From contig JABDKF010000215.1 in assembly GCA_013003155.1 (NCBI GenBank), forward strand, positions 1-56,098: a stretch of DNA of 56,098 bases, in the 5' to 3' direction. The notes beneath the pieces were generated by a model. That model was given only the letters and a program-made list of their open reading frames with translations, was not told the origin of the DNA and did no database searches. Positions within the stretch are counted from its first letter, which is position 1. The number at the start of each line of letters is the position of its first letter. The DNA is from Woeseia sp. GTDB taxonomy: Bacteria; Pseudomonadota; Gammaproteobacteria; Steroidobacterales; Woeseiaceae. This document shows positions 5,206 to 51,139 of the stretch, piece after piece. Made by a program: the position numbers and the translations under genes.

Positions 5206-6632
5206 TCGCTGCTGTCGGTTACGCCGTATTCGTCCGGGGCCACGTCTTCGGGTGGCTTGCGCGGCGCCAGGTGTTGATCAATTTGTTCAAGATCTTCCAC
5301 TTTCAAAATGCCCGCAGCCTGTTTGAGTTGCAGAACGTTGCCAACGTACACGTAGCGGCTTTGGTAGAAATTGGTAATGGCGGAGTACAACGCGCGTTGT
5401 GAATTCAGCACGTCGACAATCGTACGTGTGCCCACTTCGAAGCCTGCCTGAGTTGCATCCAACGCGGTGCGGCTCGACGCTACCGCCTGCTCCAACGCAT
5501 TTACCCGGCTGATTTCAGAGAGCACACCGAGGTAGGCATCACGGGTCGCACGCTCTGTTTCGCGAGTTACGCGCTGGAGCTGCTCCCTCGCAGCGCGATG
5601 CAGATAGACGGCCTCGCGCACCCTGGATGAAGTGCCTCCCCCTGCAAACAACGGCACGGAAATTTGCAGGGAAATGCTGTCACCCTGATTTTCCGTATTG
5701 AAGTCAGGAATTTGCACGCCGCCACGGGTTTGATCCATCACGTCAGTCTGCGAGTCGTTATAACTGGCAACCAGGTCGATGGTCGGGTAGTGGCCAGTGC
5801 GTCGGAAACCGATCTCGTCGCGCGCGATGCGTTCATCCAGCCGGCTGGCAACAAGCGCCAGGTTTTGGGCCATTGCAAGATCAATCCAGCTTGCCTGATC
5901 GCCGGGATCCGGAGAGGGTAACGGGAAGGCATCGCCCGGCGCTGCAAGGTCCGCGACGTATTCACCGGTAATTTCGCGCAGCAGTTCGCTTGCGGTTGCC
6001 AATTCCCGTTTGGCACCGATTTCTGCGGCGACGGACTGATCGTATGCTGCCTGCGATTCCTGCACGTCTGTGATTGCGATCAGGCCGACTTCGAACCGTT
6101 GGCGCGCCTGCTCCAGTTGTCGCGCAATGGCGAGACGGTCAGCGCGAATGGACGTCAAGCGATCCTCTGCCGCCAGTACATCGAAATAGCGCTGCGATAC
6201 CCGCACGATAAGATCCTGCTGGGCCGCCTCTTTTTCCGCTTCGGCTTTGGCGACCAGCTTGTGTGCCTGTTTCAGGCTAACGAGTTGATCCCAGCGAAAC
6301 ACGGTTTGCTGCAAATTGACCTGCCAGCCCGTCGTTTCGTTGGCTGATTCAAAAGACAGGGTGTCGATGCCGGTCCGATCCTGCACGATATTGCGACCGG
6401 ACGAGTTCGCCTTCGTCAGTTGTCCCGCGGCGGACAGTTGTGGCAGCAATGCGCTGCGCGCCTGTGGCACCGCCTCGAGCGCGGCAAGGCGGCGCGACTC
6501 TGCCTCATGGATCAACGGGTCGCTTTGCAGCGCCTGCTGGTAGACCTCTAGCAAAGTAGCAGCGTGCAAAGCCGGTGCGGCACCAAGCAACACGGCGTAA
6601 AGCGCGAGCCGGTGTTTTTTATATTTATTCAT
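5199..6632 (-). CDS. tolC: TolC-family outer-membrane efflux/secretion channel
   Basis: Trimeric outer-membrane channel partnering inner-membrane exporters. I place the start at the ATG that gives a clear signal peptide, MNKYKKHRLALYAVLLGAAP followed by ALHA and cleavage before ATLLEVY (477 residues). A TTG nine codons upstream is less likely. The mature protein begins with the typical LLEVYQQALQSDP and contains two OEP repeats rich in coiled-coil helix, including LVSLKQAHKL and the second-repeat ALDATQAGFEVGTRTIVDVLNSQ cut short here. The C-terminus is charged (PPEDVAPDEYGVTDSSDQ). It is the third gene of a row with a methyltransferase-like gene and a rhodanese, 95 bases after the latter, and it converges on waaA with a 7-base overlap. 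Which exporter it serves is not shown here. Confidence 0.93.
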   Translation of the reverse strand: MNKYKKHRLALYAVLLGAAPALHAATLLEVYQQALQSDPLIHEAESRRLAALEAVPQARSALLPQLSAAGQLTKANSSGRNIVQDRTGIDTLSFESANETTGWQVNLQQTVFRWDQLVSLKQAHKLVAKAEAEKEAAQQDLIVRVSQRYFDVLAAEDRLTSIRADRLAIARQLEQARQRFEVGLIAITDVQESQAAYDQSVAAEIGAKRELATASELLREITGEYVADLAAPGDAFPLPSPDPGDQASWIDLAMAQNLALVASRLDERIARDEIGFRRTGHYPTIDLVASYNDSQTDVMDQTRGGVQIPDFNTENQGDSISLQISVPLFAGGGTSSRVREAVYLHRAAREQLQRVTRETERATRDAYLGVLSEISRVNALEQAVASSRTALDATQAGFEVGTRTIVDVLNSQRALYSAITNFYQSRYVYVGNVLQLKQAAGILKVEDLEQIDQHLAPRKPPEDVAPDEYGVTDSSDQ

Positions 6633-50322: not shown

Positions 50323-50408
50323 TTGATTCCTCCAAAATATTCTGTCTTTACAGCTAGTTCGCGTACCGAGAAACTCACCTTGTCGGCGCCGCGATATAGC
50401 CAATTTTG

Positions 50409-50490
50409 AGCAGCCCCGTGTATAATGCCGCCTGGTTCCGCACCCAGTCCCGAAACCTTAAGTCATCCTGACTTAAATAACGGGGCTGCT
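50409..50490 (+). promoter_or_regulatory. Nested inverted-repeat element upstream of petABC
   Basis: Outer arms AGCAGCCCCGT (50409-50419) and ACGGGGCTGCT (50480-50490) are perfectly complementary over 11 bases. Inside lies a second dyad, TTAAGTCA (50458-50465) and TGACTTAA (50469-50476) with a 3-base loop, and a short CTGG/CCAG stem (50432-50435, 50444-50447). A perfect TATAAT is enclosed as well. It may be a structured RNA leader or a compound operator; see findings. Confidence 0.45.
50421..50426 (+). promoter_or_regulatory. petA: Probable -10 box for petABC
   Basis: A perfect TATAAT about 132 bases before the petA ATG, with no recognisable -35 at 16-18 bases. Transcription from here would start near 50433, so an activator may be needed. 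The flanking dyad at 50458-50476 would lie just after the start point. Confidence 0.4.
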
Positions 50491-50557
50491 GCAAATCTAC
50501 CAGTTTTTGAATCAAGCAAAGAAATAGCGGCTCTGAGCCTGCGTATGGGAGCGCCTG

Positions 50558-51139
50558 ATGACAGACGACGTTGATCGCAACAGACGTCATTTTCTTACCG
50601 TAGCCACGGCGGTAACCGGCGGGGCGGGCGTTGTGCTGGCCGCGATTCCTTTTTTATCGTCGCTGAAACCCAGTGCTCGGGCGCAGGCGTTGGGTGCCCC
50701 CGTCGAGGTGCCGCTCGACTCGCTTGAGCCGGGCGCGATGATTCGGGTCATCTGGCGCGGCAAACTGGTCTATGTGGTGCGCCGCGACGAGGCGATGCTG
50801 TCGCGCTTGCCGGAAACGGACGCGCTGCTGCGCGATCCCGAGTCCGAGGTGGATCAGCAACCGCCCTATGCGGTGAACGAATATCGCTCGGTGCGACCCG
50901 AGTATCTGGTCGTTGAAGGGTCTTGTACCCATCTGGGCTGTGCGCCACTGCCGGAGTTTGAGGTCGTGCCCGCCGAAAACTGGTATGGCGGATTTTTCTG
51001 TCCTTGCCACGGGTCGAGGTTTGATCTGGCCGGGCGCGTCTACAAAGGCGTGCCCGCACCGACCAACCTGCGGGTTCCGCCGTACCGCTTTATCCGTGAT
51101 GACGTCATCATTATTGGCGCCGACACAGGAGCAGCGTAA
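50558..51139 (+). CDS. petA: Ubiquinol-cytochrome c reductase, Rieske iron-sulfur subunit
   Basis: Carries the 2Fe-2S cluster of the cytochrome bc1 complex. The 193 residues begin with a twin-arginine-type signal anchor ([17 protein letters not shown]). Cluster ligands are Cys123 and His125 in CTHLGC and Cys148 and His151 in CPCHGS, with Cys128 and Cys150 as the disulfide. Directly followed by petB with no gap. The upstream region carries a TATAAT box and a nested inverted repeat. Confidence 0.97.

Follow-up and report, generated by a model that had tools for sequence, protein, structure and literature searches.

The 56,098-nucleotide stretch of Woeseia sp. DNA analysed here (contig JABDKF010000215.1, hereafter the window) carries petA, petB and petC together with genes for a DegS-like protease, MurA and SspB, all confirmed by Pfam. 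A gap of about 235 bases separates the likely start of degS (about 50325) from petA (50558). A preliminary description had reported two nested inverted repeats and a TATAAT hexamer in this gap, and all of these are present. On the + strand, the outer arms AGCAGCCCCGT (50409-50419) and ACGGGGCTGCT (50480-50490) are complementary at 11 of 11 positions, and the inner dyad TTAAGTCA-TCC-TGACTTAA occupies 50458-50476. A short CTGG/CCAG pairing is found within 50432-50447 of the same strand. The repeats had been judged unlikely to arise by chance. This holds against 1000 first-order Markov sequences with the composition of the same degS-petA gap: an 8-bp short-loop dyad occurred in 2.3% of them and an 11-bp long-range pair in 0.9%; no sequence had the two jointly (0/1000). 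The fold of 50400-50500 has z = -5.2, and the fold that includes the outer arms reaches -35.5 kcal/mol in the window genome. The conserved element is larger than was described, starting at 50397 and reaching at least 50503 (Table 1). It is in two parts, a promoter of fixed spacing followed by a leader that is predicted to be transcribed.

Table 1. Features of the petABC upstream region, in window coordinates.
Feature	Position	Strand	Support
TAGCCAAT, upstream box at the -35 position of the petA promoter	50397..50404	+	conservation in 99 leaders
Left outer arm of the preliminary description; promoter spacer, not RNA	50409..50419	+	pairing not kept in relatives
GTGTATAATG, -10 element (TATAAT 50421-50426)	50418..50427	+	97-100% conserved
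Transcription start, predicted	50433..50434	+	inferred from the -10 position, about 7 nt past TATAAT
TTCCGCACC, 5' block of the leader	50436..50444	+	conserved in alignments
P1 left strand CAGTCCCG, true lower stem	50445..50452	+	covariation
P2 left strand TTAAGTCA	50458..50465	+	stem-swap, simulation and pair-count tests
UCC loop inside invariant AUCCUGA	50466..50468	+	conservation
P2 right strand TGACTTAA	50469..50476	+	stem-swap, simulation and pair-count tests
P1 right strand CGGGGCTG, overlapping the right outer arm of the preliminary description	50481..50488	+	stem-swap, simulation and pair-count tests
GCTGCAAATCTACCAG, tail, probably single-stranded	50488..50503	+	strong conservation
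Hairpin just 5' of the petA ribosome-binding site	50527..50542	+	predicted; sequence not conserved
petA ribosome-binding site GGGAG	50547..50551	+	GGGAG or AGGAG before petA in most leaders
petA, Rieske Fe-S subunit of cytochrome bc1	50558..51139	+	Pfam PF10399, PF00355
petB, petC	3' of petA	+	Pfam PF00033/PF00032 (petB), PF02167 (petC)

Nearly all of the genomes compared are metagenome bins. DNA similarity to the intergenic region was found in 24 of 60 related genomes, with most matches starting at window position 50397. Of the 107 Woeseiaceae genomes, 95 have the element 5' of petA according to R1, a sequence-only profile built from 44 copies (E <= 0.001). There is one copy per genome, except for one bin with two. 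Two different element-petA loci lie on contigs G091:C37 and G091:C70 of one bin, which points to either mixing of genomes in the bin or a duplication. No element was detected in some genomes of the family (g5, g6 and g7), though most of the g5 genomes, and g7, have petA. Outside Woeseiaceae, a 296-genome sample of the order gave the element in one genome only. It lies on a 3494-base contig (G244:C225), and its leader, L077, hardly differs from L005, the leader of a family member. This contig (L077, L213) is binned in a genome of another family and is probably misbinned, that is, bin contamination. A pattern scan of named genomes returned 41 records labelled Woeseiaceae or Woeseia or carrying broader or other proteobacterial names. 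R2, the model with structure, rose above chance, among 369 genomes of the class, only in the two Woeseiaceae genomes of that sample, and the weak class-level matches that were fetched had no petA nearby. Within the window, positions 6246-6323 match the structured model weakly (E = 0.03), probably by chance. The element appears, from these searches, to be restricted to one family, Woeseiaceae. It matched none of 4227 Rfam families at E <= 1, and no paper describing it was found in the literature on Woeseiaceae small RNAs and petABC leaders. We regard it as a new, lineage-specific structured leader, absent from the RNA libraries searched and from the literature found.

The promoter follows the pattern TAGCCAAT-N13-GTGTATAAT (50397-50426) with invariant spacing. 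TAGCCAA lies exactly 24 nt 5' of the -10 hexamer in 99/99 distinct petA leaders, a set defined as those in which the promoter was found with at most two mismatches allowed in TAGCCAA. In these leaders, positions 1-7 of TAGCCAAT are 92-100% conserved and position 8 is 74% conserved; GTGTATAAT is 97-100% conserved, whereas the intervening spacer ranges from 36 to 83%. Across 246 genomes of the order, the exact pattern is present as a single copy in each carrier genome, the window genome included, except for one bin with two copies, which is probably mixed. The reversed control gave 0 matches in the same 246 genomes. The conservation and fixed spacing uphold the earlier alternative in which TATAAT is the promoter, and also its corollary that the left outer arm, which lies upstream of the predicted start, is not transcribed. 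TAGCCAAT is an unusual -35 box and probably adds a petABC-specific transcriptional input. Three reduced genomes of genus g5 (L208, L209, L214; 1.1-2.0 Mb, AT-rich) keep TAGCCAAT-N13-GTGTATAAT before petA and have lost the structured RNA block.

Three conserved blocks, TTCCGCACC, AUCCUGA and UGCAAAUCUACCAG, are found 3' of the promoter. The distance from AUCCUGA to UGCAAAUC is 24 nt in nearly all leaders and 25 in a few. Between the conserved block and petA, both the length and the sequence of the spacer vary, and the tail lies 52-324 nt from petA. The inner dyad is the tip (P2) of a two-part stem-loop whose lower stem (P1) pairs 50445-50452 with 50481-50488. In the window genome, each P2 arm has one additional base, which lengthens the helix to 8 bp. 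The fold was tested by swapping stem halves between lineages, by tree-aware simulation (200 replicates on one tree, keeping the changes per column) and by counting pairs against shuffled and slid controls. Stem halves of the same leader fold better together than halves exchanged across lineages, with z = -4.1 to -4.8. The RNAalifold consensus is -19.3 kcal/mol, compared with -9.1 +/- 2.3 in the tree-aware null, where 0/200 replicates were as low. In the remaining counts, for which the structure was derived from the test sequences themselves (the swap test and the re-derived alifold energy are the exceptions), P1 shows 563 double-change sequence pairs versus 215 +/- 86 in the tree-aware null (1/200), P2 paired cells reach the observed level in 7/200, and paired cells overall amount to 87.6%, with 0/500 shuffles as high and slid controls at most 42%. 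All three tests back the predicted P1 and P2 fold, with strong support for P1 and moderate support for P2. Examples of compensation are CUCAG/CUGAG in L049, where neighbours have CCCGG/CCGAG, and GCGGUC/GACUGC in L171. At paired positions G-U outnumbers A-C two to one (58 versus 27), which argues for an RNA on the + strand.

RNAalifold found no structure in the first, unanchored MAFFT alignment of 24 sequences; anchoring the alignment at AUCCUGA and UGCAAAUC recovered it. For some relatives, the individual sequence folds no more stably than its shuffles. A 5' hairpin around UUCCGCA was rejected as unsupported (z = -0.33), as was a pairing of 5' UGGU with ACCA in the tail, which showed no coupling. 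No covarying partner of the tail GCTGCAAATCTACCAG was found.

The covariation check proposed at the outset gave different answers for the two repeats. Compensatory changes in relatives confirm the inner dyad as a stem, but none couples the outer arms, which had been taken as part of the element. In 32 representatives, pairing between the spacer and the right arm is no better than swapped pairing (z = -0.95, p = 0.17), and the arms are missing in the one further genome sampled from the genus. The outer arms are complementary by accident: GCCCCGTGTATAAT and CGGGnCTGCT, two motifs that are each conserved on their own, happen to match, and chance extended the match in this genome. The inverted repeat is striking, and comparison with relatives shows it to be accidental.

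Wherever both were located, the element is on the petA strand and 5' of petA. Of 90 loci, 85 have degS in divergent orientation. No intact degS was found in L024, L149 and L166, where murA is directly before the promoter, and the element is still present there. Second Rieske genes, which are found in several genomes, are without it. Since the element is kept where degS is lost and is missing at second Rieske genes, it serves petABC. Control shared with degS, which the divergent arrangement had suggested, is disfavoured because the promoter and the RNA face petA and persist with degS deleted. Altogether, five loci with an intact petA promoter (L149, L166, L047, L107 and L024) lack degS in the interval from murA to petA, and L149 and L107 retain only a short C-terminal remnant of it. 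The second Rieske proteins in G082, G066, G010, G119 and G114, which are without the leader element, are 41-59% identical.

We think it probable, though well short of certain, that this region is a dedicated petABC promoter with a structured, cis-acting 5' leader specific to Woeseiaceae. RNA polymerase would start near 50433. The first 70 nt of the leader would contain TTCCGCACC, the P1/P2 stem-loop with its internal loop, and GCUGCAAAUCUACCAG as an unpaired tail. Next would come a variable spacer, in which a hairpin is often present, and then the petA ribosome-binding site. The leader lies between the promoter and the first gene of the operon on the same strand, and it may act in cis as a landing site for a putative trans-acting regulator. 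The regulator, either an RNA-binding protein or a small RNA, would read the tail and the loop and adjust the translation or the stability and decay of the petABC mRNA. Terminator-like sites between the element and petA occur in 2 of 90 leaders and are marginal, and no terminator was found in the window. No conserved pairing that masks the ribosome-binding site was seen on inspection of the leaders. A cis leader that recruits a trans-acting factor is suggested because there is no terminator, no reading frame that is kept and no mask of the ribosome-binding site. The leader probably tunes the amount of the bc1 complex.

Post-transcriptional control of petABC has a precedent in Neisseria, where the small RNA NrrF represses petABC (PMC5586341). 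The likeness lies in the inferred control of the mRNA that encodes cytochrome bc1. However, NrrF is a separate, Fur-controlled, trans-acting RNA, whereas the Woeseiaceae RNA is in cis, as the leader of petABC. By analogy, the precedent makes such control reasonable; it carries no information on the Woeseiaceae RNA.

Structured leaders that are autogenously controlled or bound by proteins are known in bacterial operons, such as the leaders of ribosomal-protein operons. Like these, the Woeseiaceae leader forms a stem-loop whose loop and joining regions are conserved, is the 5' leader of a single operon and is restricted to one lineage. It differs in that it matches no Rfam leader model and its operon encodes a respiratory complex.

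The main rival to the cis leader is a leader-derived small RNA of 80-100 nt, released by processing or termination and acting in trans with the tail GCUGCAAAUCUACCAG as its seed. A strong dedicated promoter, a conserved block that stops about 50-320 nt before petA with a variable spacer behind it, and a probably single-stranded, almost invariant tail would all suit such an RNA, and we hold it to be a possible reading, at roughly a third of the weight given to the cis leader. The consistent terminator that it calls for is absent after the block (2/90), the element is never found away from petA, and second Rieske paralogues are without it; it shows neither the terminator of its own nor the independence from a neighbour gene that mark an independent small RNA gene. 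UpsM of Rhodobacter is a 5'UTR-derived small RNA. The Woeseiaceae leader is like UpsM in its strong promoter, its conservation in the leader of one operon and its lineage restriction, but no internal terminator was seen in it. It is a more doubtful idea that the bc1 leader doubles as a Woeseiaceae-specific trans-acting small RNA whose invariant tail GCUGCAAAUCUACCAG serves to coordinate other respiratory mRNAs. If true, this would link bc1 synthesis with the other parts of the electron transport chain.

A compound DNA operator for a dimeric repressor or activator, possibly also acting on degS, had been preferred for the case in which TATAAT is the promoter, but it is now unlikely. There is dyad symmetry near the promoter, and the TAGCCAAT box may well be a protein-binding DNA site. 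However, the stem halves vary in sequence while their complementarity is kept, leaving no conserved half-site; G-U is tolerated above A-C, the outer arms are not conserved, and the element is kept where degS is gone. A ligand-sensing riboswitch controlling petABC is slightly less likely still. A riboswitch would suit a 5' leader whose covarying stem is flanked by conserved loop and joining sequences, but this leader has a single small helix stack, lacks an expression platform (neither a terminator nor a conserved mask of the ribosome-binding site), is limited to one family and one operon, and matches no known Rfam riboswitch class.

Conservation due to a small ORF or leader peptide is very improbable. 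Several genomes have open frames from the ATG in TATAATG, and by eye the conserved TCCTGA could provide a stop. However, this ATG is inside the -10 element, 5' of the predicted start. The distances between blocks (22-30 nt; 24 or 25 nt) differ by 1, 2, 4 and 6 nt, so no reading frame is kept, and these frame-breaking indels rule out a coding explanation. The closed multi-branch RNA with arms 50409-50419/50480-50490 can practically be set aside, since its very stable fold is that of one genome, its left arm lies between the promoter boxes and the arms are uncoupled across the family.

Woeseiaceae are widespread in marine sediment, but because nearly all are known only as metagenome bins, the regulation of their respiration is unstudied. 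A family-wide promoter box and a structured RNA before the bc1 genes suggest lineage-specific post-transcriptional control of petABC, and the exact sequence and structure of the leader are now given for testing.

In G020 (C13:110848-111374; L020), petA is present as two overlapping pieces in different frames, reflecting a frameshift or an assembly error. In most short leaders, a hairpin is predicted at the same place as in the window, 5' of the petA ribosome-binding site. In L144, L158, L167 and others, a long and variable hairpin region separates the conserved block from the ribosome-binding site, and in many genomes this region is closed by GCGCUGA...UCAGC.
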